DNA of 23,965 nt from an uncultured Caldimonas sp. GTDB lineage: Bacteria; Pseudomonadota; Gammaproteobacteria; Burkholderiales; Burkholderiaceae. The stretch lies in the NCBI RefSeq assembly GCF_946480305.1, contig NZ_CAMLJQ010000056.1, forward strand, positions 1 to 23,965. The letters are read 5' to 3'. Below the pieces are notes generated by a model, which made no database searches, had not been told where the DNA came from, and was given only the letters and a program-made list of their open reading frames with translations. This document shows, piece by piece, positions 4,324 through 23,740 of this stretch (the stretch's first letter is position 1; each line of letters starts with the position of its first letter). The position numbers and the translations under genes are program-made.

Positions 4324-5652
4324 ATGGATTCGACTTCCTCTTCCAACGCACCGGAATTGATGCAGTGCGAGGTGCTGATCGTCGGCGGCGGCCCGGCAGG
4401 GTCGACGCTCGCCACCTTGCTGGCCCGCCGCGGCCGCGATGTGGTGGTGCTCGAGAAGGAGCACCATCCGCGCTTCCACATCGGCGAATCGCTGTTGCCC
4501 GCCAACGTGGCCTTGTTCGACGAACTCGGCGTGCGCGACGAGCTGGAGCGCATCGGCATGCCCAAGTGGGGCATCGAGTTCATCTCCGAGGAGCACGAGC
4601 ACCGCAGCTACCTCGAGTTTGCCGACGCGTGGGACAAATCCATGCCCTATGCCTGGCAGGTGCGCCGCTCGGTGCTCGACGAGATGCTGTTCCGCCATGC
4701 TGCGAAGGAAGGTGCCCGCACCTTTGAAGGCCACAAGGTGCGCAACGTCAGCTTCGATGCGGAAGGCGCGACGGCCGAGGTGCAGCTCGAAGACGGTCGC
4801 CGCCAGACCTGGCGCGCCAGGTACTTCGTCGACGCGTCGGGCCGAGACACGCTGCTCGCGAACCAGTTCAAGTGCAAGCACAAGAACCCCAAGCACAACA
4901 GCTCGGCGCTGTTCGGCCATTTCCGCAATGCGCGGCGGCTGGAGGGCAAGCGAGAGGGCAACATCAGCATCGCGTGGTTCCCGCACGGGTGGTTCTGGTT
5001 CATTCCGCTGGCTGACGGCACCACGAGCGTGGGCGCCGTGTGCTGGCCGTACTACCTCAAGTCCCGCAAGAAGCCGCTGCCGGAGTTTTTCCGCGACACG
5101 ATCGCGATGGTGCCCGAGCTGGCCGACCGGCTGAAGGACGCCGAGCTGATCGACGAACAGGTGCACGCCACCGGCAACTATTCGTACAGCGCGTCGCACG
5201 CCAGCGGCGAGCGCTACGTGATGCTCGGCGATGCGTTCGCGTTCATCGATCCGGTGTTCTCGTCGGGCCTGTACCTGGCCATGCGCAGCGCGTTCAACGC
5301 GGTCGACGTGGTCGAAACCACGCTGGACCGCCCGCACGAGGCGGCCGCCGCGCGCAAGCGCTTCGAGAAGATCATGCGCTTCGGGCCGAACCAGTTCTCG
5401 TGGTTCATCTTCCGCGCCACATTGCCGACGATCCGCGAATTCTTCATGTTCCCGCGCAACCCGCTGCGCATGAAGGAGGCGCTGCTGTCGCTGCTGGCCG
5501 GCGACATCTACGGCAAGACGCCGATCTGGACCTCGCTGCGGCTGCTCAAGGCGGTGTACTACACCGAGTCGCTGCGGCATTTCAAGCGTTCGTGGCACGC
5601 CTGGCGACAGCGCAAGATCGCGATCCGCGATGTCGAGGTGGCCGGCCAGTGA
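4324..5652 (+). CDS. flavin-dependent halogenase-like FAD oxidoreductase of the aryl polyene cluster
   Basis: A 442-residue cytoplasmic flavoprotein. The FAD Rossmann motif GGGPAGS is at 21-27, followed by the HIGESLLP block (52-59) seen in halogenases acting on phenolic or carrier-bound substrates. KWGIEF (K81, G83, F86) fits the halogenase KxGxxF signature, with Lys81 as candidate catalytic lysine. GWFWFIP (W223, W225, I227, P228) matches the WxWxIP signature of flavin-dependent halogenases. GDAFAFIDPVFSSG near 302-315 is the second FAD motif. Xanthomonadins are brominated aryl polyenes, so halogenation of the hydroxybenzoyl head is the likely job, but halide and site are inferred. I start at the ATG at 4324; another in-frame ATG at 4276 would add 16 unlike residues. 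First gene of the operon; its stop overlaps the chorismatase GTG. Confidence 0.85.
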   Translation: MDSTSSSNAPELMQCEVLIVGGGPAGSTLATLLARRGRDVVVLEKEHHPRFHIGESLLPANVALFDELGVRDELERIGMPKWGIEFISEEHEHRSYLEFADAWDKSMPYAWQVRRSVLDEMLFRHAAKEGARTFEGHKVRNVSFDAEGATAEVQLEDGRRQTWRARYFVDASGRDTLLANQFKCKHKNPKHNSSALFGHFRNARRLEGKREGNISIAWFPHGWFWFIPLADGTTSVGAVCWPYYLKSRKKPLPEFFRDTIAMVPELADRLKDAELIDEQVHATGNYSYSASHASGERYVMLGDAFAFIDPVFSSGLYLAMRSAFNAVDVVETTLDRPHEAAAARKRFEKIMRFGPNQFSWFIFRATLPTIREFFMFPRNPLRMKEALLSLLAGDIYGKTPIWTSLRLLKAVYYTESLRHFKRSWHAWRQRKIAIRDVEVAGQ

Positions 5653-6689
5653 AGCAAGCGCAGTGGGCGGGTGCCGTGGCGCCGCCGTCACCGCTGGTGT
5701 TCCGGCGGCAAGGGGCTGAGCCTGAGTCCGCAGAGCCGGACGCGGGGCTGCACCTGCTCGTCCGACGGACTCACCTCACCAGCGAAGGCGGATCGCTGGC
5801 CGCCCCGCCGCTGCTGTTGCCGCGCGAGCCGCTGGCCGAAGCATGGCTGGTCACGCAGCCGGTGCACGAGTTCGCGCATGGGTGCCTGAGCTACAGCACC
5901 GATGGCGAATGGCTGCATGGCACGGCCCATATCGACGAGCGCTCGCTCGCCGGTGGCCTCGAGGCGGCAGCGTTCGAGGTCTATTCCGCGCTGTTTTCGT
6001 TGCTGGCCGATAGCGGCTGCCCGCACTTGCTGCGGCTGTGGAACTACGTGGCCGACATCAACGTCACCGGCGACGGCATGGAGCGCTACCGGCAGTTCAA
6101 CGCCGGGCGGCAGCGAGCCTTCCTGGCCGCCGACCGCAGCGCCTTCGTCGGCGCACCGGCCGCGTGTGCGCTGGGGACCCGGCAGGGTGGGCTGACGGTG
6201 CATTTCCTGGCCGGGCGCGTGGCGCCGCTGGCCGTCGAGAACCCGCGGCAGGTCAGCGCCTATCACTACCCCAGCACCTACGGCCCACGCAGCCCTACTT
6301 TCTCGCGTGCCGCGCTGGCCGACCTTGGTGGCGGCCGCGAGGTGCTGTTCATCTCCGGCACCGCGAGCATCGTCGGCCACCAGACCGTGCACGTCGGCGA
6401 CGTGCGTCGGCAGACCGAAGAAACGCTGGCCAATCTGCAAGCCGTGATCGACGCGGCGCGCCCGCAAAGCCGGGCCGCCACGGGTTACGCATTGAGCGAA
6501 CTGGACATGACGGTCTACGTTCGCCACGAAGGCGACCTGCCTGCCGTTCGCGAAGTGCTGGTACAGCAGCTCGGTGAGGGGGCTGCGGCCGTCCGTGGCG
6601 CCCTGTACCTGCGTGCGGACATCTGTCGCGCGGACCTGCTCGTCGAGATCGAGGCGCAGGCGATCGCGCATGTGAAGGAATCTCCATGA
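5649..6689 (+). CDS. xanB2: chorismatase, XanB2/Hyg5-FkbO family (3-hydroxybenzoate synthase)
   Basis: Family members hydrolyse chorismate; XanB2 and Hyg5 give 3-hydroxybenzoate (XanB2 also 4-hydroxybenzoate), whereas FkbO makes a dihydroxycyclohexadiene carboxylate. The 346-residue protein has the conserved blocks LWNYVADIN (130-138), ENPRQVSAYHYPSTYGPRSP (197-216), FISGTASIVGH (234-244) and the C-terminal ADICRADLLVEIE. The Cys in that last block fits the Hyg5-type branch as I remember it, so 3-hydroxybenzoate is favoured. The GTG start at 5649 overlaps the halogenase stop (GTGA) and has a GAGGTGG site about eight bases upstream; the frame is open further 5' but that part overlaps the halogenase. 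It should supply the aryl starter of the polyene. Confidence 0.88.
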   Translation: MKQAQWAGAVAPPSPLVFRRQGAEPESAEPDAGLHLLVRRTHLTSEGGSLAAPPLLLPREPLAEAWLVTQPVHEFAHGCLSYSTDGEWLHGTAHIDERSLAGGLEAAAFEVYSALFSLLADSGCPHLLRLWNYVADINVTGDGMERYRQFNAGRQRAFLAADRSAFVGAPAACALGTRQGGLTVHFLAGRVAPLAVENPRQVSAYHYPSTYGPRSPTFSRAALADLGGGREVLFISGTASIVGHQTVHVGDVRRQTEETLANLQAVIDAARPQSRAATGYALSELDMTVYVRHEGDLPAVREVLVQQLGEGAAAVRGALYLRADICRADLLVEIEAQAIAHVKESP

Positions 6690-7564
6690 CGCTCACCCGC
6701 CGGACGGCCGGCGTCCTGCCGGCGTTGTCGGCACTCGTATGCCTGACGGTTGCTCCTGCACACGCTCAGGGCGGCCCCGCTCCCTTGCCGCCAGCCCGCA
6801 AGGTCGAGCGCCCGCTCTGGGAAGTGGGCCTGGGCGTCGGTGCGTTGACGCTGCCCGACTACCGCGGCGCTGCCGATCGCACCAACTACCTGCTGCCGAT
6901 CCCGTACGTCGTCTACCGCGGCGAATGGCTTCGTGCAGACCGTGAAGGTGCGCGCGCCGTACTGCTCGACGCGCAGCGGCTCGAGGTCGACCTCAGCGTC
7001 AATGCGTCGCCGCCTTCGCGCAGCGACAGCCGCGGCCCGCGTGCCGGCATGGACGACCTGCCCGCCACCGTGGAACTGGGCCCCAACGTCAACTACACGC
7101 TGTGGCGTGCCGCGTCGGGCCGCGCCAGGCTCGACCTGCGCCTGCCGGTGCGGGCGGTGATGACGCTGGAGCGCTCGCCGCGGCACATCGGGGGAGTGTT
7201 CGCGCCGCACGTCAACCTCGACCTGACCGATCTGGCCGGTGGTTGGCGCCTCGGCCTGCAGGCCGGGCCGCTGTTCGCCACGCGGCGCTACCACCACCAC
7301 TTCTATGGCGTCGACGCCGCCGATGCCCAGGCAGGTCGACCGGCATACCGCGCCAGCGGGGGCTATGGCGGCTGGCAGGCACTGGCCGCCGTGTCGCGCC
7401 GCTTCGAGCGCACGTGGGTCGGGGCCTTCCTCCGTTACGACCATCTCGGCGGGGCCGCGTTCTCCGACAGCCCGCTCGTCGAGCGCCGTCATGGCGTGAC
7501 GGCCGGCGTGGGAGTGTCGTGGGTGCTGATGAGTTCCGAGCGCCGGGTCCTGGTCGAAGAGTAG
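6686..7564 (+). CDS. MipA/OmpV family outer-membrane protein
   Basis: A 292-residue protein with a clear Sec signal peptide (Arg-rich start, hydrophobic core, cleavage predicted after AHA at about residue 27). The mature part alternates polar and hydrophobic residues as in a beta-barrel and includes LGVGALTLPDYRGA, LLPIPYVVYRGEWLR and a glycine-rich C-terminal strand, typical of MipA/OmpV. Family members are outer-membrane proteins, one reported to scaffold murein enzymes. The ATG overlaps the chorismatase stop by four bases and has an AAGGA site six bases upstream, so its expression is tied to pigment-head synthesis. A role in anchoring or exporting the polyene is inference. Confidence 0.85.
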   Translation: MTLTRRTAGVLPALSALVCLTVAPAHAQGGPAPLPPARKVERPLWEVGLGVGALTLPDYRGAADRTNYLLPIPYVVYRGEWLRADREGARAVLLDAQRLEVDLSVNASPPSRSDSRGPRAGMDDLPATVELGPNVNYTLWRAASGRARLDLRLPVRAVMTLERSPRHIGGVFAPHVNLDLTDLAGGWRLGLQAGPLFATRRYHHHFYGVDAADAQAGRPAYRASGGYGGWQALAAVSRRFERTWVGAFLRYDHLGGAAFSDSPLVERRHGVTAGVGVSWVLMSSERRVLVEE

Positions 7565-7572
7565 CCCCGCGC

Positions 7573-8304
7573 ATGGTGCTGGTCCGCGCATTGCTGGCGC
7601 TCTGGCTGTACGTCCTGCTGCTGTGGCTGGGCCTGATTTCGCTCGGCTGGAACCTGATCGCGTTCGCCATCTACCCGCTGTTTCCTCGCCGCATCGGGCA
7701 GCGGATCGGCCGGGGCGGCATCGCCTATGGCTACCGCTTCTACTGGTGGTGCGCACGCCTGAGCGGTTTGATGCGCATCGACGCCCGCGCGCTGCAGGCG
7801 CTGCGCTCCGAACCCGGGGGCCTGATCATCGCGGCCAATCACCCGACCATGCTCGACGCGCTGCTGATCGTCGCGCAACTGCCGCGTTCGGTCTGCATCA
7901 TGAAAGCTTCGTTGATGCGCAACGTGTTCCTGGGGGCCGGTGCGCGGCTGGCGCGCTACATCCGCAACGATTCGCCACGCAAGATGATCCGGCACGCGGT
8001 GGCGAGCCTGCGTGAAGGTGGGCAGCTGGTGCTGTTCCCAGAGGGCACCCGCACCGAGGGGGCGCGGCTCAACTGCTTCCGCCCGGGCATCACGGTGATC
8101 GCCCAACGAGCCGGCGTGCCGATCCAGACCGTCATCATCGAAACCGACACGCCCTATCTCGGCAAAGGCTGGCCGCTGTGGCGCTGCCCACCGCTGCCCA
8201 TCGTGTTCAAGCTGCGACTCGGCCAACGCTTCGAGCCGCAGGACGACGCGGCGCACACGCTCGGTGAGCTGGAAGCGTATTTCAGGAAGGAACTCGGATC
8301 GTGA
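7573..8304 (+). CDS. PlsC-type 1-acyl-sn-glycerol-3-phosphate acyltransferase family protein
   Basis: A 243-residue membrane-associated acyltransferase. An N-terminal hydrophobic segment (about 5-37) is followed by motif I NHPTMLD (H90, D95, the HX4D catalytic pair) and motif III FPEGTR (155-160). Aryl polyene clusters usually carry a PlsC-type enzyme thought to pass the polyene acyl chain to a glycerol or glycerophospholipid acceptor; that role is inferred here. The ATG at 7573 lies eight bases after the MipA stop. The frame is open further upstream but runs antiparallel to sense inside the MipA gene. The stop overlaps the next gene's GTG. Confidence 0.87.
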   Translation: MVLVRALLALWLYVLLLWLGLISLGWNLIAFAIYPLFPRRIGQRIGRGGIAYGYRFYWWCARLSGLMRIDARALQALRSEPGGLIIAANHPTMLDALLIVAQLPRSVCIMKASLMRNVFLGAGARLARYIRNDSPRKMIRHAVASLREGGQLVLFPEGTRTEGARLNCFRPGITVIAQRAGVPIQTVIIETDTPYLGKGWPLWRCPPLPIVFKLRLGQRFEPQDDAAHTLGELEAYFRKELGS

Positions 8305-9089
8305 TCGCTCCCGCCGCCCCGCGCCATGCGGTCGTCATCCCAAGCTACAACCCGGGCCCCAAGGTCTACGAGACGGTGCGCGCCGCGCGCGAACAGTGGG
8401 CCCCGGTGTGGGTGGTCGTCGACGGCAGCACCGACGGCACGGCCGAAGGCCTGCAACGTATGGCGCAGGACGATCCCAACCTGCACGTGATCGTGCTGCC
8501 GCGCAACAGCGGCAAGGGCGCTGCGGTGCTGAGCGGCTTTGAGGCGGCTCGCGCGGCCGGCTATACGCATGCGCTGACGATGGACTCCGATGGCCAGCAC
8601 CCGGCGGACCTGATTCCGCGCTTCATGCAGGTCTCGGCCGACCACCCGGATGCCATGGTGCTCGGCCAGCCGGTCTTCGATGCCTCCGCGCCCTTGCTGC
8701 GCGTGCGCGGCCGGCGCATCTCGAACGGCTGGACCAATCTCGAAACGCTGGGTGCCGGCATTGCCGACTCGCTCTACGGCTTTCGCGTCTATCCGATCGA
8801 CGAACTGATCGCGGTGATGCGGCGCCAACCGTGGATGCGGCGCTTCGACTTCGATACCGAGGCGGTGGTGCGGCTGGCTTGGCGTGGCGTGGCGCCGCTC
8901 AACCTGCCGGCACCGGTGAAATACCTGCGGGCCGACGAGGGTGGCGTGTCGCACTTCCGCTATGGGCGCGACAACGTGCTGCTGACGTGGATGCACACGC
9001 GGCTGGTGCTGGAGTTCCTGCTGCGCCTGCCACTGTTGCTGTGGAAACGGCTGCGGGGGGCGCCGCCGTTTCAGTACCGGGGGCGGTGA
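8301..9089 (+). CDS. family 2 glycosyltransferase
   Basis: A 262-residue GT-A fold glycosyltransferase. It shows VVIPSYNPG (11-19), VVDGSTDGT (39-47) and the DxD-type nucleotide-sugar and metal site MDSDGQHP (D95, D97), followed by the YGFRVYP and RRFDFDTE blocks. The tail (about 235-250) is hydrophobic and may touch the membrane. The donor and acceptor are unknown. In E. coli-type clusters a GT2 domain is, as I recall, fused to an LpxL-type acyltransferase; here the two activities are encoded separately, on opposite strands. The GTG start overlaps the acyltransferase stop (GTGA). It is the last gene of the plus-strand operon. Confidence 0.87.
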   Translation: MIAPAAPRHAVVIPSYNPGPKVYETVRAAREQWAPVWVVVDGSTDGTAEGLQRMAQDDPNLHVIVLPRNSGKGAAVLSGFEAARAAGYTHALTMDSDGQHPADLIPRFMQVSADHPDAMVLGQPVFDASAPLLRVRGRRISNGWTNLETLGAGIADSLYGFRVYPIDELIAVMRRQPWMRRFDFDTEAVVRLAWRGVAPLNLPAPVKYLRADEGGVSHFRYGRDNVLLTWMHTRLVLEFLLRLPLLLWKRLRGAPPFQYRGR

Positions 9090-9121
9090 AGGGTTTTAGT
9101 GCGTTGTGGCGGCGCGTGGGG

Positions 9122-9212
9122 CGGCAGGGCGCGCAGGCGCGGGACTGTCCCCCGGCGCCGGGCCTGTGGCCGCCACCTCCTCCTTGACGTCCCGCGCCTG
9201 CGCGCCCTGCCG
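9122..9212. terminator. large inverted repeat between convergent operons, likely bidirectional terminator
   Basis: Arms 9122-9145 and 9189-9212 are perfect reverse complements over 24 bases, separated by 43 bases that include a 12-base palindrome CCCGGCGCCGGG at 9151-9162. Two further G-C pairs extend the stem beyond a G-T wobble. The element fills most of the 168-base gap between the glycosyltransferase and the convergent lipoprotein gene, where a terminator serving both strands is expected. There is no U-tract, as is common in such GC-rich genomes. Confidence 0.65.
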
Positions 9213-9257
9213 TCCGGGGTGGCGCTGCTTTCTGGGGCGCGGGCCGGGTTCGGGGGC

Positions 9258-9791
9258 TCAGCGCAGCTTCAACTCACCGGCGATCTGCTGGCAGACGGCT
9301 TCGATCTGCTTGCTCGTCATCGCGGAGAAGATGCCTTCCCAGGCGCTCGATGACGTGTTGTAGCTGCGCTCGCCGAAGTCGGTGCCGTTGCGCAGGTCGG
9401 CGAAGCGCACCTTGGCGTCGATGAAGGCGTTGCCCGTCATCACGCCGAGGCCGAAACGGGCGCCGGCCGAGACGTAGCGGTAGTCGTTGACGTTGACGAC
9501 GACGAGCGTGCCGGTGTCGCCGGTATGGCGGGGCGTGCCGTCCTGGAAGCTCAGCTTGGCGCCGGATTGCGCCACCGCCGTTTGCATCGCCTCGTGCCAC
9601 TCCTGCTTGAACTGCGCCCAGTCCTTCGAGGACGTCGCGGTGCTGCTGCCTGTGACGTTGAGCACGACGTTCTTGGTTGCCGAAACGGGCACGCGCAGCG
9701 GGTTGTTGTCGGCGGTGCCGGTCTTGACCGAGGCGGCACAGCCACCGAGCAGAACCGAGAAGGCCAGAAGGGCGGAAGTGAGAGCTTTCAT
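9258..9791 (-). CDS. lipoprotein of unknown function, DUF4410-like
   Basis: A 177-residue protein with a lipoprotein signal and lipobox LLGGC (Cys18). The mature part contains the stretches VVVNVNDYRYVS and MTGNAFIDAKVRFADL, and a conserved-looking SYNTSSSAWEGIFSAMT block; I recall such sequences as DUF4410-type lipoproteins of Burkholderiales, but I am not certain. The ATG at 9791 is supported by the signal peptide; upstream in-frame sequence overlaps the antiporter in another frame. It follows the antiporter after 86 bases, so it may be the last gene of the long minus-strand operon or have its own promoter. E. coli-type aryl polyene clusters also contain a small lipoprotein (ApeN), but homology cannot be shown here. 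Confidence 0.78.
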   Translation of the reverse strand: MKALTSALLAFSVLLGGCAASVKTGTADNNPLRVPVSATKNVVLNVTGSSTATSSKDWAQFKQEWHEAMQTAVAQSGAKLSFQDGTPRHTGDTGTLVVVNVNDYRYVSAGARFGLGVMTGNAFIDAKVRFADLRNGTDFGERSYNTSSSAWEGIFSAMTSKQIEAVCQQIAGELKLR

Positions 9792-9847
9792 GAGACCGTC
9801 CAAGTGAAAGAAGGGGCAGTGTAGACAGGCGGCTCGTGCTCGGCTGC

Positions 9848-9861
9848 CCCTCGAAAGAGGG
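9848..9861 (-). terminator. short hairpin after the antiporter gene
   Basis: CCCTC and GAGGG form a 5-base stem around a 4-base loop, 16 bases past the antiporter stop and before the lipoprotein start. It has no U-tract, so it may be an RNA-processing or weak termination site. Confidence 0.3.
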
Positions 9862-9877
9862 ACCGACCCGGGCAAGA

Positions 9878-11182
9878 TCAAGCCGGGCCGGCCACCCGTT
9901 GCTCGGTGGGTGTGTCGGCCCCCCGGGCCGCGGGCAGCCACCAGCGCAGGCAGGGGCTGGTGATGACGGTGCTGACGATCGCCATCAGCACCAGCATCGT
10001 GAACATCTGGCTGTTGATGACGCCGAGGTCGTAGCCGACGTTCAGCACCACCAGTTCCATCAGGCCGCGGGTGTTCATCATCGTGCCGAGGATCTTGGCC
10101 TGCGGGGAGTTCATGCCGGCGGCTCGTGCGGCGAGATAGCAGCCGCCGAACTTGCCGAGCGTCGCGATGCCGATGATGGCTGCGCACCACATCCACGCCT
10201 GCGCGTCGGCGAGCGAGCCGATGTTGGTGCGCAAGCCGGTGTAGGTGAAGAACACGGGCATGAAGAACACGCCGACGATGTGGCCCACGCGTTCCTGCCA
10301 GGCCTTGGCGAAGGCCGGCCGGTCGTGCAGCAGCACGCCGAGCATGAAGCCGCCGAAGATCGCGAAGATGCCGAGCTGGTAGGTGGCCATGCCGGCGGCG
10401 AAGATGCAGGCCAGCACCACGCCCATCAAGGTGCCGGACATGCGGGCGTCGCGCGCGATCTCGCGGTCGACCCAGCGGCCCAGCAGCGGGCGCACGACCC
10501 ACCAGCACAGCGCGGTGAACGCGAACAGCCCGAGCACACGCAGGCCGAGGCCGGCACCGTCGAACTGGGCAGTGGCGAGCGCGGTGACGACGGCCAGCGC
10601 GAGCCAGCCGAACACGTCGTTCATGGCCGCGGCGCCGATGGCCACCACACCGATCGGGGTGCGCGTGAGTTCGAACTCCAGCATGATCCGCGCGAGCACC
10701 GGCATGGCGGTGATCGATAGCGCGGTGGCAAAGAACAGTGCGAACACGGTCGGGTTGCCCGAGCCTGCATAGGCCGACGGGATGAACCCGGCCGACACGA
10801 GGCCGAGCACGAAGGGCACGATCACGCCGACCGCCGCCACCCACACCACCGCGCGCCGGTTGCGCCGCTCGCCGAAGTGGGCGAAATCCGATTCGAGCCC
10901 GATCTGGAACATCAGCAGCAACAGGCCGATCTGCGCCAGGATGTTGAGCGGCAGTGCGGGTGCCGACTGGAACACGTAGCTGAAGGTCTGCGGTGCCAGC
11001 GCGCCGAACAGCGAGGGCCCGAGCAGGATACCGAGCACGATCTCGCCGACCACGGCGGCCTGGCTCACGCGCCGGGCCAGCCAGCCGCCGGCGCGGCCGA
11101 CGAGCACGATCACCGCGAGCTGCAACAGCACGAAGAACAGGATCGCCTCGGTGGCATGCACCTCGGAATGCCCGGCCGCCAT
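9878..11182 (-). CDS. CPA-type cation:proton antiporter
   Basis: A 434-residue inner-membrane protein with about 12 hydrophobic segments, matching Na+/H+ or K+/H+ exchangers (KefB/NhaP-like). Conserved blocks are GEIVLGILLGPS (46-57), LLLLMFQIGLE (87-97), SITAMPVLARI (156-166) and AAAMNDVFGW (184-193), with the ion-binding pair Asn188-Asp189. The length equals the membrane domain alone; there is no C-terminal RCK/TrkA-N domain. The ion is unknown. The start ATG shares one base with the ketoreductase stop (TGATG), so the gene is translationally coupled to polyene synthesis. An antiporter is not a standard aryl polyene gene that I know of. The in-frame extension to 11599 is a shadow of the ketoreductase. 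Confidence 0.87.
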   Translation of the reverse strand: MAAGHSEVHATEAILFFVLLQLAVIVLVGRAGGWLARRVSQAAVVGEIVLGILLGPSLFGALAPQTFSYVFQSAPALPLNILAQIGLLLLMFQIGLESDFAHFGERRNRRAVVWVAAVGVIVPFVLGLVSAGFIPSAYAGSGNPTVFALFFATALSITAMPVLARIMLEFELTRTPIGVVAIGAAAMNDVFGWLALAVVTALATAQFDGAGLGLRVLGLFAFTALCWWVVRPLLGRWVDREIARDARMSGTLMGVVLACIFAAGMATYQLGIFAIFGGFMLGVLLHDRPAFAKAWQERVGHIVGVFFMPVFFTYTGLRTNIGSLADAQAWMWCAAIIGIATLGKFGGCYLAARAAGMNSPQAKILGTMMNTRGLMELVVLNVGYDLGVINSQMFTMLVLMAIVSTVITSPCLRWWLPAARGADTPTEQRVAGPA

Positions 11183-16063: not shown

Positions 16064-18466
16064 TCAGCGGCCGGATTGTCCCACAGGGGGATTGTTTGAC
16101 ACCCCCCTAGAAGGAGCGATGAAGGCGGCTGCCAGCAGCAGGCTCAGCAAGGCGCCGGGCGCCACCACCTGGCCCACGGCGGCGAGTGCCGGCACCTCGG
16201 AGGTGGCGAGCAGCCCGAATGACGCGACCGTCGTCAGATTGGCCAACAGCAGCGAGGCCAAGGTCTCTTCGTCGGCATGGCCGGTGTGCCGCAAATGGTC
16301 GAAGAACAACGAGTAGTTGGAGCCGACCGCCGCTACCAGCAGCAGTCCCACGAGGTGGAGCACGCCGAGTGCTGCGCCGGCGGCAGTGAGCCCGGCCAGC
16401 ACCAGCACGACACTGGCGGCCAGTGGCAGCGCGACGTGCGCCAGCCGGCGCAGCGAGCGCAGGTGGGCGTAGAGCAGCACCAGCACCGCGCCGGCACCGA
16501 GCAGCGCCTGCCAGACCGCTTCGCGCAGGTAGTGCGCGTAGAGCGCGTCGAGTTCCGGCTGGATCTGCACGACCCGCGTGCCCGGCACGCCAGCCAGCAC
16601 GGTGCGCAGGCGCTGCACGTCGAGCGCCGGCGCTGCGTCGCCCTGCGGTGCGCGCAGGGTGAGCAGGGCCGTCCAGGGGCGACCGTCACGACCCTCGACG
16701 AGTTGGGCCTGCAGTGCGCTGGCGAGCGGCGTGTTCTGCAGGCTGGCGCGGGTCACGAGCGGAGCGGCGCGTTGGCGCTGCACGTCGGCGACGAAGGGTT
16801 CGAGCTTGGCTGCGGGCAACGGGCCGGCGGCCGTGGCCTGCTGCAACCTGGCGCGCAGATCGGCCTGCGCCGGCAGTGCGGCCTGGCGCAGCGCCTGCAG
16901 CGCGGGGCTGGGCAACAGCTTCGCGGGCGACTCGTAGCCGAGCAGCACACCTTCGTCCACCAGGACGTCGAGTTGCCGGCCGGCTTGCTCGGCGCGTTCC
17001 AGCGCGGCGGCTTCGTCAGGGGCTTCGATGGCCACCAGCGTGCCGCCTTCCAGTGCACCCAGGTCGGCGCGTAGTGAAGCATCGAGTGCCAGGGCTTCGG
17101 CGGGTACCGGGCTCAGTGCGGCCAGGTTGCCGCGCCATGCGCTCGGTTGCATGCACAGCCACGCGAATGCGAGGCCGGCGAGCGCGGCCAGCGGCCAGCC
17201 AAGCCGCGGCAATGCAGCGGCGACCCGGGCGGTGGCACGGCCGAGCGGGCGGCGCAGGCCCAGCCCATGCGCGCCATCGGGCGCCAGGCACGGCAGCACG
17301 TAGCGTGTGGTGGCAGCCGCAGCCACCAGTCCCGCGATCGAAAACACGCCCAGCTGCGCGAGACCTCCAAAGCCGGAGAACGCGAGCGCCGCAAAGCCGG
17401 CGATCGAGGTCCACAGACCGAGCCGCACGGCGCGCCAGTTCTGTGCATGCCAGCGCTGCCAGCCGCGCTGGTCGTTCGCCGCACCGGCAGCAGGGCGGGC
17501 TTGTACCAGGTAGTAGATCGCGTAGTCGACCGCTTCGCCGATCAGCGTGGTGCCGAACCCGAGCGTGATGCCATGCACCTGCCCAAAGCCCAGGCTCACC
17601 GCGGCAATGCCGGCCAGTACGCCGCTGGCCACGGGCAGGAAGGCGATGCCGAGCGACTTCAGCGACCCGAACGCGACCAGCAGCAGGGCCGTCATCGCCA
17701 CGGCACCCAGCGTTGCCAGGCGCTCGACCTCGGACTGGATCTGGCTGCGTGACTGCACGCCCATCACGCCGGGGCCGGAGAGTTCGAGCACCAGCCCGCG
17801 GTCGGCCCACGGCGCAAACGCCCGGCGCACGGCGTCGAGCGCGCGGGCCTGGCCGTCGAGGTCGGAGCCTTCGGCCCGGGTGTTGCCGACCAGCACGGCG
17901 CGCGGGTGCTGGCGTGACACCCACACGCCTTGCTCCAGGCGCGGCGCATCGGCCGGCAGCATCGCCTCGGCCATCCGCACGGTTTCACCGGTCGGGTCGC
18001 GCCACAGCACCGGCTTGATCAGAGAGCCGGCCGGTGTGCCGAGCAACGAGAGCGTTTCGTCGATGGCCGCCTGCAGTCCTTCGACGGTGAAGCGCTCGGC
18101 GGTAACGGCCGGACTCAGCAGGTAGCGGTGCTCGAAGAGGAACTCGCCGGCGGACTGCCACGCTCCCTGGTCGCCGTTGTGCACGGCTTCGAACTCGCCG
18201 CTTTGGCGCAGGCTGGTTGCGAGGGCACGCGACGCGTCTGCTCGCTGCGTGGCGTCGCCCCCGCGCACGCCGATCAGCACCACGCGCGAGGTGGCGCCGC
18301 TGCGCAGCTGCTCGAGCAGCACCCGCTGCTCGACGGTGGGTGCCGACGGCAGGAAGGCGGAGAGGTCGGCGACGTAGGGCGTGCGGATGGCGACCACGGC
18401 GGCAAGGCTCGCGAGCGCGAGCCAGATCCACAGCGCGGTGCGCCGCACGGTGGTGGCGGCGCTCAT
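16064..18466 (-). CDS. MMPL/RND-family exporter (ApeM-like)
   Basis: An 800-residue inner-membrane transporter with two repeated halves. Each half has one N-terminal membrane helix (about 11-28 and 420-440), a large periplasmic domain and a block of five or so helices (about 255-400 and 640-790). IGEAVDYAIYYLVQAR in the first half and GSNYSLFFDHLRHTG in the second are the matching helix-4-type segments with acidic residues, as in MMPL transporters that move lipids. In aryl polyene clusters this gene works with a LolA-like protein to take the pigment from the inner membrane. The ATG overlaps the LolA-like gene stop. The C terminus (GVSNNPPVGQSGR) is polar and spans a hairpin with a C6 tract, so its exact end could differ. 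Confidence 0.9.
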   Translation of the reverse strand: MSAATTVRRTALWIWLALASLAAVVAIRTPYVADLSAFLPSAPTVEQRVLLEQLRSGATSRVVLIGVRGGDATQRADASRALATSLRQSGEFEAVHNGDQGAWQSAGEFLFEHRYLLSPAVTAERFTVEGLQAAIDETLSLLGTPAGSLIKPVLWRDPTGETVRMAEAMLPADAPRLEQGVWVSRQHPRAVLVGNTRAEGSDLDGQARALDAVRRAFAPWADRGLVLELSGPGVMGVQSRSQIQSEVERLATLGAVAMTALLLVAFGSLKSLGIAFLPVASGVLAGIAAVSLGFGQVHGITLGFGTTLIGEAVDYAIYYLVQARPAAGAANDQRGWQRWHAQNWRAVRLGLWTSIAGFAALAFSGFGGLAQLGVFSIAGLVAAAATTRYVLPCLAPDGAHGLGLRRPLGRATARVAAALPRLGWPLAALAGLAFAWLCMQPSAWRGNLAALSPVPAEALALDASLRADLGALEGGTLVAIEAPDEAAALERAEQAGRQLDVLVDEGVLLGYESPAKLLPSPALQALRQAALPAQADLRARLQQATAAGPLPAAKLEPFVADVQRQRAAPLVTRASLQNTPLASALQAQLVEGRDGRPWTALLTLRAPQGDAAPALDVQRLRTVLAGVPGTRVVQIQPELDALYAHYLREAVWQALLGAGAVLVLLYAHLRSLRRLAHVALPLAASVVLVLAGLTAAGAALGVLHLVGLLLVAAVGSNYSLFFDHLRHTGHADEETLASLLLANLTTVASFGLLATSEVPALAAVGQVVAPGALLSLLLAAAFIAPSRGVSNNPPVGQSGR
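16085..16108. repeat. inverted repeat in the 3' end of the exporter gene
   Basis: AGGGGG (16085-16090) pairs with CCCCCT (16103-16108) across a 12-base loop, about 20 bases before the stop of the MMPL gene. It lies just upstream of the 84-base gap leading to the deacetylase gene and could reduce read-through into the second half of the operon. Confidence 0.4.
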
Positions 18467-19053
18467 CGCGACGCTGGTGCCACCGGCTCGATCTGCATCA
18501 CCGAGCGGTCACCGTCGGTCATCAGGATCCGCACCTCACTGACCGCCGCTCGCTGGCCGCTCAATGCCACGCGAGCCACCTGGCCACGCAAGCGGGCGTC
18601 GCGCGGCACGAGTTCCAGTGTCCAGCGCGCCAGCGTGCCGTCGAGCTGCACCGTGAAGTGACGCTCCAGCACCTCGCGGTTGCCGGTCAGCGTGCCGCGG
18701 ATGGCTTCGACGATGACCTGGGCCTCGGGCGTTGCGTCGAGCGCCACCGTGCGGCGCCGGCTGCCCTGACTCATCGTCACCGTGTTGCCGGTGACCGCGA
18801 GCTTTTCCTGCCGTGGTTTCAGTGTTTCGCGCACGAAGGTGTCGGGCGCGGTGAACGACAGGCGGCCGGACGACACCAGCGTCTGATCGAGTTGCAGCAC
18901 GTGGCGCTGCTCGGTGAAGCGGGCTTCGCCCGAAGGGATCGCAGCCAGCGACGCCATCAGCTCTTCGAGCTGCAGTGTCGACGCATGGGCCCAGGCGCTC
19001 ACCAGCCCCAGGGCGATCCATGCAGTTTTGGCGAAAGTTCTCATGGCATTCAT
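18463..19053 (-). CDS. LolA-like outer-membrane lipoprotein carrier family protein (ApeL-like)
   Basis: A 196-residue periplasmic protein with a signal peptide, cleavage predicted after AHA at about residue 24. The mature part resembles LolA: a start with GEARFTEQR, the GRLSFTAPDTFVRETLKP strand pair and a C-terminal half of beta strands. It is thought to carry the hydrophobic polyene product across the periplasm, working with the MMPL exporter coded just downstream with a four-base overlap. The ATG at 19053 overlaps the stop of the upstream acyltransferase (ATGA); a second ATG three codons later is possible. Confidence 0.85.
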   Translation of the reverse strand: MNAMRTFAKTAWIALGLVSAWAHASTLQLEELMASLAAIPSGEARFTEQRHVLQLDQTLVSSGRLSFTAPDTFVRETLKPRQEKLAVTGNTVTMSQGSRRRTVALDATPEAQVIVEAIRGTLTGNREVLERHFTVQLDGTLARWTLELVPRDARLRGQVARVALSGQRAAVSEVRILMTDGDRSVMQIEPVAPASR

Positions 19054-20024
19054 GCAGCAAGCCGGGGGCCGTCGTCGGATTGCGGCGCGGGCACCGGAGG
19101 CTCGGCAGCGACGGGCGCCCAGAAATCGAAGAAGTTGAACCAGTTGTACGGCGTCTCGCGGCACAGGTCCTCGAGGATCTCGACGTAGCGCGCCATCGCG
19201 CCGTGGATGGCCGCGTCCACGGCAGCGGTGCCGCGCGGCCGCGCGCGAAAGTCCGCCACCGGCAGGAAACGCAGCTCGTAGCGGTTGCCGCCATGGTAGA
19301 TGCCGGCCATGAACACCATCTGCCGGCGCAGCAGCGCAGCCAGCCGGAAGGGGCCATCGGAGAAGGGTGCCGGCGCGCCGAGGAAGGGCAGCAGGTGCAG
19401 CCCCGAGCGCTCCGACTGTCCGGGCAGCGTGCGGTCGGCCAGCAGGCCGGCGACGCCGCCCGCGTCCAGCCACTCGCGCAGCGCCAGCATCGACTCCATG
19501 CGCCCGAGCGGGATGATGTGCAGCTCCGCGTTCGGTGCCACGGCCTGCAAGGTGGTGTTGATCAGCCGGGCGTTGTCTTCGTACATCACCATCGCGACCT
19601 TCAGGCCGCGCCAGCCCTGGCCCAGCGCGCGCAGCGCCTCGAAGCTGCCGACGTGGGCGCCGACGAGCAGGGCGCCACGGCCATCGGCCAGGACCGCGTC
19701 GAGGTGCTCGACGCCGCTCAACTGCACATCGAAGCCGTCGAAGTGTTCCTGCAGCAGGTACACGCGGTCGAGCACCGTGGCGGCAAAGTGATGGATGTGC
19801 CGGTAGCGCTCGCTCCAGCGGGGTGTGCGCCCCAGCGCGCGTTCGAGGTAGCGAGCCGATTGGCGTGCGGCGGTGCCGCCGAACAGCATGAAGTACAGCG
19901 TGATCGGGTGCAGCACGCAGCGTGCGACGCGGCGCCCGAGCCGGGTCGCGATCCAGCGCATGAGCTGCAGCGTGCGCAGGTTGCTGCGCTCGCGCTGCTC
20001 GCTCCAGGAGGTGGGCCCGCTCAC
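19050..20024 (-). CDS. LpxL/HtrB-type lysophospholipid acyltransferase
   Basis: A 324-residue membrane-associated acyltransferase. LLVGAHVGSFEALRALG contains the HX4E catalytic pair (His124, Glu129) of the lipid A late-acyltransferase family. GLKVAMVMYEDNARLIN, GGVAGLLADRTLPGQ and the C-terminal YNWFNFFDFW are also typical. In aryl polyene clusters this family is proposed to move the polyene acyl chain from its carrier to a lipid or sugar acceptor. I chose the GTG at 20024 because it overlaps the ApeI-like gene stop (GTGA); the frame stays open upstream only as a shadow of that gene. No GT2 domain is fused to it, unlike some family members. Confidence 0.86.
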   Translation of the reverse strand: MSGPTSWSEQRERSNLRTLQLMRWIATRLGRRVARCVLHPITLYFMLFGGTAARQSARYLERALGRTPRWSERYRHIHHFAATVLDRVYLLQEHFDGFDVQLSGVEHLDAVLADGRGALLVGAHVGSFEALRALGQGWRGLKVAMVMYEDNARLINTTLQAVAPNAELHIIPLGRMESMLALREWLDAGGVAGLLADRTLPGQSERSGLHLLPFLGAPAPFSDGPFRLAALLRRQMVFMAGIYHGGNRYELRFLPVADFRARPRGTAAVDAAIHGAMARYVEILEDLCRETPYNWFNFFDFWAPVAAEPPVPAPQSDDGPRLAA

Positions 20025-20341
20025 GGTGTGGCGGCGGGCTCGAAATGCCCGCTCGCGGCCAGCACTTCGTTGCCGGCTTCCAGTTTGCGCACCTCGAACT
20101 GCACGCGGGTGGCCGAGGTGTGCCACTGGACGCGGATCTCGCAGCCAGGGGGAACGGCAGAAAGGAACTTGGCCGCGCCGATGCGGCAACCCGACGCGAA
20201 CTGCGCCGCGGTGCCCTCGTCGGCCAGCACGGCCTCCATCACTTCGGTCAGCAGCACCACGCCCGGCAGCACCGGCCGGCCGGGGAAGTGCCCGGCAAAG
20301 GAGGGGTGGTCCGGCGGAATGTGGCGGGAGACGACCTGCAC
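20021..20341 (-). CDS. ApeI-like hotdog dehydratase
   Basis: A 106-residue hotdog protein. HPSFAGHFPGRPVLPGVVLLTEVME (12-36) contains the FabA/FabZ-like GHFPG..PVLPG signature, with His18 as likely catalytic residue. It matches ApeI, one of the two dehydratases of aryl polyene synthesis. The start is a GTG at 20341, supported by an AAAGGAG ribosome-binding site five bases upstream that overlaps the stop of the ligase gene. There is no ATG in a suitable place. The C terminus overlaps the acyltransferase start. Confidence 0.83.
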   Translation of the reverse strand: MQVVSRHIPPDHPSFAGHFPGRPVLPGVVLLTEVMEAVLADEGTAAQFASGCRIGAAKFLSAVPPGCEIRVQWHTSATRVQFEVRKLEAGNEVLAASGHFEPAATP

Positions 20342-20352
20342 GCGTGCTCCTT

Positions 20353-21720
20353 TCAGGCGAGGTCCGCCGTGGCGTCCGGTTGCAGCCACTGCACCGCGAA
20401 CTGCTCGAGCCGCGCAGCCGGCAGCTTGCCGGTCGGGTCGCGTGGCAACGAGTCGACCTGCACGATGCGCCGCGGCAGCAGCACCGGGTCGACGCGCCGG
20501 CGCAGCTCGGCCAGCATGTGGTCGCGCGGCACGTCGGGCGCCACGACGAACGCGACCAGCCTTGCCACGCTTTCGACCGACTCTGCCGGGGGCAGCCAGA
20601 AGGCGCCGTCCTGCACGCCGTCGATGCTGTTCAGGTGGTAGTTGAGGTGCGACAGCGAGCTTCGCTTGCCCGCCACGTTGATCAGATCGTTCGAGCGGCC
20701 GAGCAGGCGGAACGTGGTGGGCGAGAGCACTTCCAGCACGTCGGCCAGGGGCGTGGGTTGCGGCACGTGGCCGCCGCTCACGACAGCCTGCTCGCCGTCG
20801 CCGGTGAGCACGAGGCCGCGGTAGGTCCGCCATTCGGGCCCGGCGGTGGTGCGACGGGTGGCGATCTGGCCGGCCTCGGTGCAGCCGTAGATCTCCATCA
20901 GCGGTGCGTCGAAGGCGGCTTCGGCCCGCGCCGCCATCTGCGGCGACAGCGGCGCGGTCGCGCAGACCACCAGGTCGACCGGCGGCAGCGCCAGCCCTGC
21001 GTCGAGCACGGTCTTCAGATGGAAGGGCGTGGTGACCAGTACGCGCGGACGGGGCAGTTGCTCGAGCACTTGCACCACGTCGGCCGGGAAGAACGGTCGC
21101 TCGGCCGCGAACGAGGCGCCGCCGAGCATCGCGATCAGCACCGTCGATTCGAAGCCGTACATGTGGTGCGGCGGCACGGTGCCGCAGATGGCCACGCCGG
21201 CCAGGTCCGCTCGGCCCATGTGCTCGGCGATGCGCTGGGCCTCCGCGCCGATGTTTTCGACCAGTCCGCCCCAGTGCTTGGCGTGGCTGCTTGGCGTGCC
21301 GGTGGAGCCGGAGGTCAGCACTTGTGCCATCACCGTGTCGGGTGTGAAGGCGGGCAGCGTTGCAGTCGCGGCAGGGGGCAGCCCTTCTTCCGCGAACCCG
21401 CACGCCGGCAGGTCGACCACCGGCCCACCGGGCTCGACCAGCGCATAGGCCGCGGGGAACATCGCCTGCAGGCGGCCCACCATGTCGGGCGTGTGATTGG
21501 GGGGCAGCAGGCTCGATTGCCCGCGCAGCACCGCGGCACCGAGTGCGAGCGCGAACCGGTAGCGGTCCGCCGTCAATGCGAGGACTGGCCCGCCCGGCGG
21601 CAGTTGCCGGGCAAGACGGTCCACGTCGCCCAGGTATTGCTGCCGGCTGATCGGCCGACCTGCCCGCCATGCGAGCGGTGCATCCAGCGGCGCGCCGGCG
21701 AGCAGCGTCGAGGCGGTCAT
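20353..21720 (-). CDS. AMP-dependent aryl-acid ligase (ApeH/XanA2-like)
   Basis: A 455-residue acyl-adenylating enzyme. It has the phosphate loop TSGSTGTP (136-143), PPHHMYGFE (a switch before the A4 region), YGCTEAGQIATR (A5), LGRSNDLINVAGKR (A8) and DPTGKLP with the catalytic lysine at about 432 (A10). It should activate 3-hydroxybenzoate with ATP and load it on the carrier protein. The ATG at 21720 is chosen; an ATG at 21735 would add five residues and overlap the upstream gene by eight bases, and has an equally good GAGAG upstream. The ATG at 21792 lies deep in the upstream gene and is unlikely. Confidence 0.88.
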   Translation of the reverse strand: MTASTLLAGAPLDAPLAWRAGRPISRQQYLGDVDRLARQLPPGGPVLALTADRYRFALALGAAVLRGQSSLLPPNHTPDMVGRLQAMFPAAYALVEPGGPVVDLPACGFAEEGLPPAATATLPAFTPDTVMAQVLTSGSTGTPSSHAKHWGGLVENIGAEAQRIAEHMGRADLAGVAICGTVPPHHMYGFESTVLIAMLGGASFAAERPFFPADVVQVLEQLPRPRVLVTTPFHLKTVLDAGLALPPVDLVVCATAPLSPQMAARAEAAFDAPLMEIYGCTEAGQIATRRTTAGPEWRTYRGLVLTGDGEQAVVSGGHVPQPTPLADVLEVLSPTTFRLLGRSNDLINVAGKRSSLSHLNYHLNSIDGVQDGAFWLPPAESVESVARLVAFVVAPDVPRDHMLAELRRRVDPVLLPRRIVQVDSLPRDPTGKLPAARLEQFAVQWLQPDATADLA

Positions 21721-21727
21721 TTCGTGC

Positions 21728-22384
21728 TCACGCATTGCGCTCTCGCATGCCGGCAGTGAGTGGCTCGTAGCTGGCATAAGCGCGTATCGCATCGACCATG
21801 CGGATGCGCTCGAACTCGGGGTGCAGACGATAGCGCAGCAGATGCTCGCCGCAGAACATCGCGACGGCCGACAGCGGTGTCAGCACGTTGGCGAACAACG
21901 ACCACGCCGAAAACGGCGCCGCGGCGTACAGCACGAGCGAGACGATCGTCATCGCGACGAAGTAGACCGTCCAGGCGACGGTGACCGAGCGGGTATAGCG
22001 CGCCATCGTCGGCTGCAGGCCATGATGCACCCGCTCCGCGAGATGCGAGATCAGTGGTTGGCGCCCCTTCAGGAGCGTGCTGCCGAACCACACGCCCAGG
22101 CTCAGGTGCACGCCCGCGTGCTGCGCCAGATAGAGCCAGTGAGGCGGAATGCGCCCGCCGTCGGCCGCGTGCACTGCGGCGGCCAGGGCCATCAGGCCCA
22201 TGCCTGCAGCCAGCCAGCGCCGGCCGCCTTGCCACAAGCCAAACAGCGCCAAGCCTGCGACGGGACCCAGCACGGCGGCCAGCGCCAGCGGCGAGCCCGG
22301 TGCCCGCGTCATCAACTGGTGGGAAAGAACTGCGTAGGCCGCGCCGGCCGCCGCTCCCAGGAGGTAGCGGGTGCGCGTGCCCAT
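21728..22384 (-). CDS. COG4648-type predicted membrane protein (ApeG-like)
   Basis: A 218-residue inner-membrane protein with five to six hydrophobic segments: near 8-24, 30-50, 57-72, 80-103 and two between 130 and 180. The sequence HAGVHLSLGVWFGSTL and the C-terminal MFCGEHLLRYRLHPEF fit COG4648, a family found in aryl polyene clusters without an assigned reaction. It begins three bases after the carrier-protein stop, and the ligase begins at or just before its own stop, so all three are cotranslated. Confidence 0.83.
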   Translation of the reverse strand: MGTRTRYLLGAAAGAAYAVLSHQLMTRAPGSPLALAAVLGPVAGLALFGLWQGGRRWLAAGMGLMALAAAVHAADGGRIPPHWLYLAQHAGVHLSLGVWFGSTLLKGRQPLISHLAERVHHGLQPTMARYTRSVTVAWTVYFVAMTIVSLVLYAAAPFSAWSLFANVLTPLSAVAMFCGEHLLRYRLHPEFERIRMVDAIRAYASYEPLTAGMRERNA

Positions 22385-22387
22385 GGC

Positions 22388-22657
22388 TCAGAGCGTGCGG
22401 TGGCTGGCGACGTGGTCCGCCAGGTTGGACAGCGACGCGAAGATGCGCTTGTTGTCGGCATCGTCGGAGCGCAATTGAAAGCCGTACTTCTTCGAGACGA
22501 CCAGCGCCACTTCGAGGATGTCGATCGAATCGAGCCCGAGGCCTTCGCCGTAGAGCGGTGCCTGCGGATCGATCGATTCAGGCGCAATTTCGAGGTTCAG
22601 CGCTTCGACCAATAGCGCGGCCACCTCGAGTTGCAATTGCTTGTCGGCCGAACTCAT
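22388..22657 (-). CDS. acyl carrier protein of the aryl polyene cluster
   Basis: An 89-residue carrier protein. The phosphopantetheine site is GLDSIDILE, with Ser44 as attachment point. It would carry the 3-hydroxybenzoyl starter and all polyene intermediates. It is the first gene of the long minus-strand operon, with a purine-rich AGGCAAG site before the ATG at 22657. It is the only carrier protein I see, as in the xanthomonadin cluster (XanC); E. coli-type clusters have two. Confidence 0.9.
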   Translation of the reverse strand: MSSADKQLQLEVAALLVEALNLEIAPESIDPQAPLYGEGLGLDSIDILEVALVVSKKYGFQLRSDDADNKRIFASLSNLADHVASHRTL

Positions 22658-22966
22658 TCTTGCCTGTCCTGTCGTGTATTTTTTGGCGGGCCCGCATGCG
22701 CGATGTGTGTCGCGCCCTCACCTGGCGGGCGGCAACCGGCGCTGCTGCGGAACTGCCATGCATCAGCATCCTGTGGCTTCTTGTCGTCGGCCCGGGGAAG
22801 CAACTGGCGTCGCCATGGGGCCGTTCGTCGAAAACAGGCCGCGAGTTTACCAAACGGTTGCAATGCGTATTCGGCCATTGTTGGCCCCCTCGTGACGCAT
22901 TACCATTGCGCGGACCTATGAAGCCCGGGCATGTGTGTGGGCGACAACAGCCGGTGACTTCTCGCA
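22658..22966. promoter_or_regulatory. divergent promoter region between carrier-protein and methyltransferase genes
   Basis: A 309-base gap between two divergent start codons, and locally less GC-rich than the genes. It must hold the promoter of the long minus-strand operon and that of the UbiE-like gene. Visible elements are a near-palindrome ACCAAACGGT at 22849-22858, and an inverted repeat AATGCGT (22862-22868) / ACGCATT (22895-22901) enclosing two GGCC blocks. No convincing -35/-10 pair was found by eye on either strand. I saw no supported gene here; short open frames lack family features. Confidence 0.55.
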
Positions 22967-23740
22967 ATGATCCAAAGAACCCCGTCCCCTTCGCACGGCC
23001 CGCACGTGCATCTGCCCCACGGCCCGCTCCCCGAGTACTACGGCGACGGCGATGACGCCGCCCGCGAGCGCTTCCTGCGCGCCACGTTCGACGACACCGC
23101 GGTCGACTACAACCGGCTCGAGCGCATCCTCGGCTTCGGCACCGGCTCGTGGTATCGCCGCCAGGCGCTCATCCGCGCGGGGCTGAAGCCCGGCATGCAG
23201 GTGGTCGACGTCGGCATGGGCACCGGGCTCGTGTCGAAGGAGATCCTGCGCATCACCAACGAGCCTCAGCGTCTGATCGGCGTCGACCCGAGCCCCGGCA
23301 TGATGCGGGAGGCCTCGCTGCCGGAAGGCGTGGTGTGCCGCATCGGCCGGGCCGAAGAGATCCCGGCCCCCGATGCCAGCGCCGATTTCGTCGTGATGGG
23401 CTACGCGCTGCGGCACATCGAGGACTTCTCCTCCGCGTGTGCCGAATTCCGCCGCGTGCTGAAGCCGGGCGGCACCTTGCTGATCCTGGAAATCACGCGC
23501 CCGGAAGGCCGCGTGTCGACGGCGCTGCTCAAGGCCTACATGCGCGGCGTCGTGCCGCTGGTCGCAAGGGTCGTGTCCAAGGCGCAGGCCACGCCGATGC
23601 TGTGGCGCTACTACTGGGACACGATCGAAGCCTGCATCCCGCCCGCCCAGGTACTCGCCAGCCTGCGCGACGCCGGCTTCGCCAACGCCGACCGCCACGT
23701 CGAACTGGGCATCTTCTCCGAGTACCGCGCCCGCGGCTGA
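22967..23740 (+). CDS. UbiE-like class I SAM-dependent methyltransferase
   Basis: A 257-residue methyltransferase with motif I VVDVGMGTGL (79-88), RLIGVDPSPGMM, a SADFVVMGYALRHIEDF block and LKPGGTLLILEITRPEG, the last two strongly like UbiE/COQ5. A longer N-terminal region (1-50) and the C-terminal AQATPMLWRYYWDTIEACIPP differ from housekeeping UbiE. The divergent position next to the carrier protein suggests a pigment role, such as methylating the aryl head, but a separate quinone-type role cannot be excluded. The ATG at 22967 is the first in frame after the promoter region. Confidence 0.83.
   Translation: MIQRTPSPSHGPHVHLPHGPLPEYYGDGDDAARERFLRATFDDTAVDYNRLERILGFGTGSWYRRQALIRAGLKPGMQVVDVGMGTGLVSKEILRITNEPQRLIGVDPSPGMMREASLPEGVVCRIGRAEEIPAPDASADFVVMGYALRHIEDFSSACAEFRRVLKPGGTLLILEITRPEGRVSTALLKAYMRGVVPLVARVVSKAQATPMLWRYYWDTIEACIPPAQVLASLRDAGFANADRHVELGIFSEYRARG

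Follow-up and report, generated by a model that had tools for sequence, protein, structure and literature searches.

An aryl polyene gene cluster of the xanthomonadin/arcuflavin type, very probably complete, in a Sphaerotilaceae-like betaproteobacterium

The contig NZ_CAMLJQ010000056.1 of an uncultured Caldimonas sp. (23,965 nucleotides; the whole of this stretch is hereafter called the window) carries at positions 4324-22657, together with a divergent gene at 22967-23740, what is very probably a complete aryl polyene (APE) cluster of the xanthomonadin/arcuflavin type from a Sphaerotilaceae-like betaproteobacterium. The cluster is real, complete, and ordinary, a further example of an already published type. 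An earlier note on this DNA had described a complete xanthomonadin-type cluster, and each gene that it named was found; nine genes within the span, namely those for the halogenase, MipA, the GT2 glycosyltransferase, DUF4410, the antiporter, both methyltransferases, the deacetylase, and a membrane protein (21728-22384), were not on its list. Its core reading was right, but the weight it gave to the chorismatase and to convergence was misplaced, and it overlooked the genes predicted to decorate the head, which would change the expected product.

The catalytic ketosynthase (KS) is paired with a short chain-length factor (CLF) in the manner of ApeO:ApeC, and the top PDB matches of the two proteins were chains A and B of one complex, 6qsp, which we take to be ApeO:ApeC itself. 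The acyl carrier protein (ACP), an aryl-acid ligase, a ketoreductase, and two dehydratases all lie within the cluster, as do an MMPL exporter, a LolA-like protein, two acyltransferases, and a glycosyltransferase. Motifs were checked with eight cluster loci of other proteobacteria and one Pseudoalteromonas locus as the comparison set (some loci were without some of the homologues). Intact in the window were the Cys-His-His of the KS, the serine of the ACP, the Ser-Tyr-Lys of the ketoreductase, SGSTG and the C-terminal Lys of the ligase, NHx4D of the PlsC-type and Hx4E of the LpxL-type acyltransferase, DDGP and HxxxH of the deacetylase, and the S-adenosylmethionine (SAM) motifs of both methyltransferases.

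In the KS tree (46 rows, of which four other ketosynthase rows formed the outgroup and two E. coli-type rows were long branches), the window, Burkholderiaceae MAG.507, Leptothrix, Sphaerotilus, and Methylibium made up a group of five (support 100/99), and these five sat inside an APE group of 26 rows (99/98), itself part of an APE side of 42 rows, so that the window KS does not fall outside the aryl polyene clades; its position next to MAG.507 and Leptothrix had a support of just 93/74. The KS of highest identity was that of MAG.507 (77%), and these closest rows bear out the betaproteobacterial origin that had been proposed. For the alignment, L013 and rows with less than 240 aligned query residues were dropped; in the KS, halogenase, and chorismatase row sets only identical rows were merged, and overlapping loci may count one gene twice. 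The APE side includes one row from a site without other cluster genes: at 15989-17194 of L010, a plasmid record of Variovorax paradoxus VAI-C, an APE-type ketosynthase (53%) was observed, and the only other matches to cluster genes within 16 kb of it were reductases that look unrelated.

Open reading frames of the window were chosen by length and third-position G+C content and scanned against Pfam and NCBIfam, and Pfam matches were obtained for most of the named cluster genes. The assignments are as follows (Arc names denote the Azoarcus counterpart by annotation).

4324..5652, plus strand: flavin-dependent halogenase-like protein (ArcA-like); Trp_halogenase 2.9e-33, best PDB match 5buk, FADH2-dependent halogenase, 3.7e-56
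5649..6689, plus strand: chorismatase of the FkbO/Hyg5/XanB2 family (ArcB-like); PF21168 5.6e-39, PDB 5ag3 3.8e-51
6686..7564, plus strand: MipA/OmpV outer-membrane protein (ArcC-like); PF06629 3.2e-46
7573..8304, plus strand: PlsC-type acyltransferase (ArcD-like); PF01553 9.5e-18 in a longer frame, NHx4D and EGTR present
8301..9089, plus strand: GT2 glycosyltransferase, perhaps a polyprenyl-phosphate-sugar synthase (ArcE-like); PF00535 1.6e-23
9258..9791, minus strand: DUF4410 lipoprotein-like protein, membership unsure; PF14366 21.5 bits, under the cut-off of 26
9878..11182, minus strand: CPA2 cation/proton antiporter (ArcG-like); PF00999 1.8e-51
11182..11916, minus strand: FabG-type 3-ketoacyl-ACP reductase (ArcH-like); NF004200 353 bits, cut-off 273
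11913..12374, minus strand: dehydratase 2, hot-dog (ArcI-like); matched in 8 of the 9 loci compared, all 8 with the His and Glu conserved
12371..13174, minus strand: CLF (ArcJ-like); PF13723 8.2e-28, PDB 6qsp_B 5.8e-08
13171..14352, minus strand: catalytic KS (ArcK-like); NF006618 551.8 bits, cut-off 407, PDB 6qsp_A 2.2e-78
14349..15116, minus strand: class I SAM methyltransferase (ArcM-like); PF13649 3.3e-14
15113..15979, minus strand: NodB-type polysaccharide deacetylase (ArcN-like); PF01522 4.1e-30, DDGP and HxxxH in 8 of 8 homologues
16064..18466, minus strand: MMPL/RND exporter (ArcP-like); PF03176 1.2e-07
18463..19053, minus strand: LolA-like periplasmic carrier (ArcQ-like); PF19574 1.9e-16
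19050..20024, minus strand: LpxL-type acyltransferase (ArcR-like); PF03279 3.4e-09
20021..20353, minus strand: dehydratase 1, hot-dog (ArcS-like), probably starting with the GTG at 20341; PF07977 2.9e-07
20353..21735, minus strand: aryl-acid AMP ligase (ArcT-like); PF00501 1.6e-16
21728..22384, minus strand: membrane protein (perhaps ArcU-like); L001, L003, L004, L009, and L011 each have a homologue in this position
22388..22657, minus strand: ACP (ArcV-like); PF00550 2.5e-08, DSI serine present
22967..23740, plus strand: UbiE-like methyltransferase, divergent and cluster-associated; PF01209 1.1e-24

The cluster proper consists of two convergent gene runs, beside which the UbiE-like methyltransferase gene lies divergently. 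From 22657 downward, the minus-strand run has the genes for the ACP, membrane protein, AMP ligase, dehydratase, LpxL-type acyltransferase, LolA-like protein, MMPL exporter, and deacetylase, and then those for the methyltransferase, KS, CLF, dehydratase 2, FabG-type reductase, CPA2 antiporter, and DUF4410 lipoprotein; the plus-strand run facing it has the halogenase, chorismatase, MipA, PlsC-type acyltransferase, and GT2 genes. Adjacent genes mostly overlap by 4 bases or are at most 12 bases apart, the larger spacings of 85 and 86 bases being before the deacetylase and DUF4410 genes, and each run would presumably form a single operon. Dehydratase 2 (scanned only within a longer open frame) and the membrane protein were assigned by homology and by position in related loci, because neither had a Pfam match. 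The DUF4410 gene had a homologue solely in L002 among the loci compared, and the antiporter was matched in two of five related genomes. Since 19 of the 25 window genes searched are matched by homologues on contig L001 of Leptothrix, with the order kept, the gene set is not a matter of chance. The G+C content of the window is 66-74% per kilobase; no tRNA gene was found in it and no Rfam match at the gathering score, and the three stretches scanned for regulatory sites gave no promoter-like site and one terminator-like site each (mean number of terminators in shuffled sequence, 0.2 to 0.5).

On the flank at 174-3755 (minus strand) lie genes for a cyclase-family protein, a YfbK-like VWA lipoprotein, a CxxCxxCC protein, and a 222-aa protein without Pfam match. 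None of these four was matched in twelve cluster loci, a comparison that took in 7.6 kb (Sphaerotilus) and 9.2 kb (Leptothrix) beyond the halogenase, and the cluster edge was therefore placed at about 4300.

The E. coli-type stretch and the related loci were compared by sequence, Azoarcus by annotation, and Xanthomonas and Lysobacter by published description. According to Table 1 of PMC3949708, 18 of the 22 genes arcA-arcV of the arc (arcuflavin) loci of Azoarcus sp. BH72 have a window counterpart by annotation (halogenase, chorismatase, MipA, acyltransferase, glycosyltransferase, antiporter, ketoreductase, dehydratase, CLF, KS, methyltransferase, deacetylase, exporter, LolA, acyltransferase, dehydratase, ligase, and ACP), and the hypothetical arcU is a likely 19th. 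The genes form two unlinked loci in Azoarcus and one locus in the window, where no counterpart of arcF, arcL, arcO, or the regulators arcW/arcX was seen; the UbiE-like methyltransferase and DUF4410 of the window are absent from that table. Disruption of the Azoarcus KS or ligase gave colourless strains, and the polyene part incorporated 4-fluoro-3-hydroxybenzoate and labelled methionine, from which its methyl group is derived (PMC3949708). The window pigment might also be an arcuflavin-type hybrid, an ester of the polyene acid with a dialkylresorcinol whose dar genes would lie at another place in the genome, as in Azoarcus BH72; both kinds of cluster are reported in Azoarcus, Dechloromonas, Variovorax, and Sideroxydans (PMC3949708), whereas general family scans of the window genes gave no match pointing to dar genes, and we regard a hybrid as possible but doubtful. 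The anchoring genes do not decide the question, because Azoarcus carries them too.

Among the related loci, Sphaerotilus hippei DSM 566 (L003) and Leptothrix sp. C29 (L001, without the antiporter) have the gene order, the convergent layout, and the UbiE-like flank of the window; at the convergent junction they have a lipoprotein-like gene (L001, 13324-14328; L003, 15344-16333) where the window has DUF4410. Our literature search found no paper naming both Sphaerotilus and aryl polyene. The plasmid cluster of Azospirillum ramasamyi (L009) has its core in the same order as the window and convergent with GT2-PlsC-halogenase, with no chorismatase or antiporter within 33 kb and with MipA and UbiE-like genes elsewhere in the stretch. 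The Lysobacter enzymogenes cluster for a yellow pigment and the xanthomonadin cluster share with the window the KS-CLF pair, two dehydratases, ketoreductase, ACP, acyltransferase, XanB2 homologue, exporters, and LolA-like protein, and a halogenase is described for the Xanthomonas clusters and none for that of Lysobacter (PMC3691225). A Lysobacter mutant in the XanB2 homologue retained some colour, its pigment being reduced by about 90% (PMC3691225).

E. coli-type clusters differ, as had been claimed. Homologues of the KS, CLF, ketoreductase, ACP, ligase, dehydratase, membrane protein, exporter, two acyltransferases, and glycosyltransferase were found at 24-47% identity in the E. coli-type stretch compared, and it gave no match to the chorismatase, halogenase, deacetylase, antiporter, or either methyltransferase. 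There the GT2 and LpxL-type acyltransferase are fused in one open reading frame, while in the window they are separate genes. Table 1 of PMC8253772 lists an additional ACP, a thioesterase, and another KS (ApeR); among the window frames scanned there were one ACP, one catalytic KS, and no thioesterase match, and by these scans and the matches to the E. coli-type stretch the window shows neither an ApeB-like methyltransferase nor the glycosyltransferase-acyltransferase fusion nor ApeR.

Three hundred genomes sampled from a larger group, the order of Sphaerotilus (G003), were surveyed with E-value limits of 1e-90 (KS), 1e-20 (chorismatase), 1e-60 (halogenase), and 1e-20 (UbiE-like); completeness of the genomes is unstated, and absences may be gaps. 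The KS was found in 54 genomes, the chorismatase in 41, and UbiC in 184, and the KS and chorismatase occurred together in 37 (37/41 with chorismatase, 37/54 with KS). The earlier note had presented the chorismatase as a Xanthomonas feature, which neither these counts nor the chorismatase of Azoarcus BH72 support. Nor is the convergent split that it singled out unusual: among the 37 genomes the chorismatase and KS genes were convergent in 20, divergent in 6, on the same strand in 5, on different contigs in 5, and more than 30 kb apart in 1, so that convergence is the commonest layout (20/31 with both genes on one contig within 30 kb). The runs are also not divided into head supply and polyene assembly as had been supposed, since the chorismatase run contains the halogenase, MipA, PlsC, and GT2 genes as well. 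Of the 54 KS genomes, 23 had both chorismatase and halogenase, 10 the halogenase only, 14 the chorismatase only, and 7 neither, and the two genes were on one strand within 1 kb in 19 of the 23.

While genes, order, motifs where checked, and kinship were observed, all reactions of the following pathway rest on analogy with what is published for Azoarcus, Lysobacter, Xanthomonas, and E. coli. The chorismatase would convert chorismate to 3-hydroxybenzoate, and possibly to 4-hydroxybenzoate too; the AMP ligase would load the hydroxybenzoate onto the ACP, the KS and CLF would elongate it with malonyl units, and the ketoreductase and two dehydratases would make one double bond per unit. The halogenase and one or both methyltransferases may modify the aryl head, the PlsC- and LpxL-type acyltransferases with GT2, and perhaps the deacetylase, may provide the polyene acid with an anchor, either a lipid or a sugar-lipid, and the MMPL exporter and LolA-like carrier would bring the pigment to the outer membrane. 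The expected product is a yellow membrane pigment with a protective role, of a kind described before from related bacteria.

The plain 3-hydroxyphenyl head of the earlier note is doubted because the cluster and its immediate flank include a halogenase gene and two methyltransferase genes and because the Azoarcus methyl group comes from methionine; a methylated head is more probable, and it may be halogenated as well. The halogenase gene is present within the cluster, as in Xanthomonas and Azoarcus, and the protein has GxGxxG, WxWxIP, and the conserved Lys, which we take to be the motifs of flavin-dependent halogenases; Lys81 and WxWxIP were invariant in 49/49 rows (rows covering less than 75% of the query were dropped here and in the chorismatase alignment). 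At residue 316, in the FSSG(V)xLAM stretch, the window has Leu and the other 48 of the 49 rows have Val. Weighing against the overall reading as a xanthomonadin/arcuflavin-type cluster are the cluster of MAG.507 (L004) without chorismatase, the 17 of 54 surveyed KS genomes without it, and the unbrominated pigment reported for Azoarcus despite its halogenase-annotated arcA (PMC3949708). The last point would also fit a flavin enzyme that is a hydroxylase or another oxidase, and the Lysobacter paper counts a ring hydroxylase among the missing enzymes, though allowing the chorismatase homologue for that step (PMC3691225); we consider this unlikely, the top PDB matches being halogenases and the two motifs being kept in all rows, and a medium without bromide could account for the unbrominated pigment.

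Two methyltransferases may act on the head, neither of which had a matched counterpart in the E. coli-type cluster. A search of 58 genomes gave the UbiE-like methyltransferase in 24; in the survey 21 of the 54 KS genomes had it, in 16 near the cluster (on the same contig, within 30 kb of the KS, chorismatase, or halogenase) and in 5 not, and it adjoins the cluster in L001 and L003. For the homologues a role as the housekeeping UbiE was ruled out: in 3/3 genomes tested a separate UbiE was present, which scored over the family cut-off, and the cluster copy scored under it.

The dedicated chorismatase that had been reported inside the cluster is indeed there (5649-6689). It matched the Hyg5 and FkbO structures in the PDB and TIGR04444 (8e-73, 245 bits, below the curated cut-off of 325), and its sequence places it with FkbO/Hyg5/XanB2 at the family level. 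PMC7170507 gives Gly173, Gly240, and Cys327 as Hyg5-type residues with the catalytic Glu334 (Hyg5 numbering; the source uses Nat-hyg5 numbering, which was shifted by 9, Glu325 being Glu334). The window has Gly237, Cys326, and Glu333 at the last three places and Ala174 at that of Gly173; this alanine occurs in 34/34 rows, so that by the residue test the enzyme is not of the CH-II/Hyg5 type. Chorismatases of the CH-III/XanB2 type make both 3- and 4-hydroxybenzoate. According to PMC3949708, the reaction of a chorismatase is not accurately predictable from alignment alone. Cys326 and Glu333 were kept in 33 of the 34 rows, with a gap at both in the remaining row. In the MAG.507 genome neither chorismatase nor UbiC was matched, and about 195 bases (L004, 16895-17090) lie between the halogenase and MipA matches, with no chorismatase there. 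The Pseudoalteromonas APE cluster (L135) has at 9472-11016 an aromatic amino acid ammonia-lyase gene, perhaps an alternative supply of the aryl head. That the chorismatase mainly makes 4-hydroxybenzoate for ubiquinone in place of UbiC, with the pigment as a secondary user, is improbable: Xanthomonas XanB2 supplies both (PMC3949708), and UbiC was found in just one of the five genomes behind the first loci, with Leptothrix (G001) and Sphaerotilus (G003) having the chorismatase and no UbiC match, but the survey did not uphold this hint, UbiC occurring in 28/41 genomes with chorismatase and 156/259 without (Fisher p 0.39) and 37 of the 41 carrying the KS.

For the anchor, the best NCBIfam match of GT2 was PpgS (polyprenyl-phospho-N-acetylgalactosaminyl synthase), at 49.2 bits far under the cut-off of 370; this weak likeness and the NodB-type deacetylase in the cluster tentatively suggest an amino-sugar anchor for the polyene. 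By one citing sentence, ApeJ joins some aryl polyenes to N-acetylglucosamine. Because chorismatase and halogenase vary among the 54 KS genomes and change repeatedly on the KS tree, we tentatively propose a swappable cassette of head genes on a fixed polyene core, in its fullest form here (chorismatase, halogenase, ArcM-like methyltransferase, and a UbiE-like methyltransferase belonging to the cluster), which may give a halogenated, doubly methylated head and, through GT2 and the deacetylase, an amino-sugar anchor; as a whole it is a long way from likely. On a quick KS tree (39 scored tips, two stateless rows uncounted), the fewest changes were 9 for the chorismatase, 7 for the halogenase, and 11 for the UbiE-like gene. 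For L009, L011, and L012 the states were taken from about 33 kb each, and for G002, G004, and G005 from metagenome-assembled genome records (G005 and L002 by genome search), and the UbiE-like gene of L004 is on a different contig. When the presence of chorismatase was tested against that of halogenase over pairs of tips, the pairs were too few for significance, and the result shows neither dependence nor independence.

XanB2-type head supply is thus common in the order of Sphaerotilus and Leptothrix and is no Xanthomonas trait. The methyltransferase of the Lysobacter pigment is called unknown in PMC3691225, and the UbiE-like gene adjoining the window cluster is a specific candidate for testing. 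The polyene core is constant, whereas the genes that supply and halogenate the head have changed again and again, and this provides a test set for the role of each head gene.

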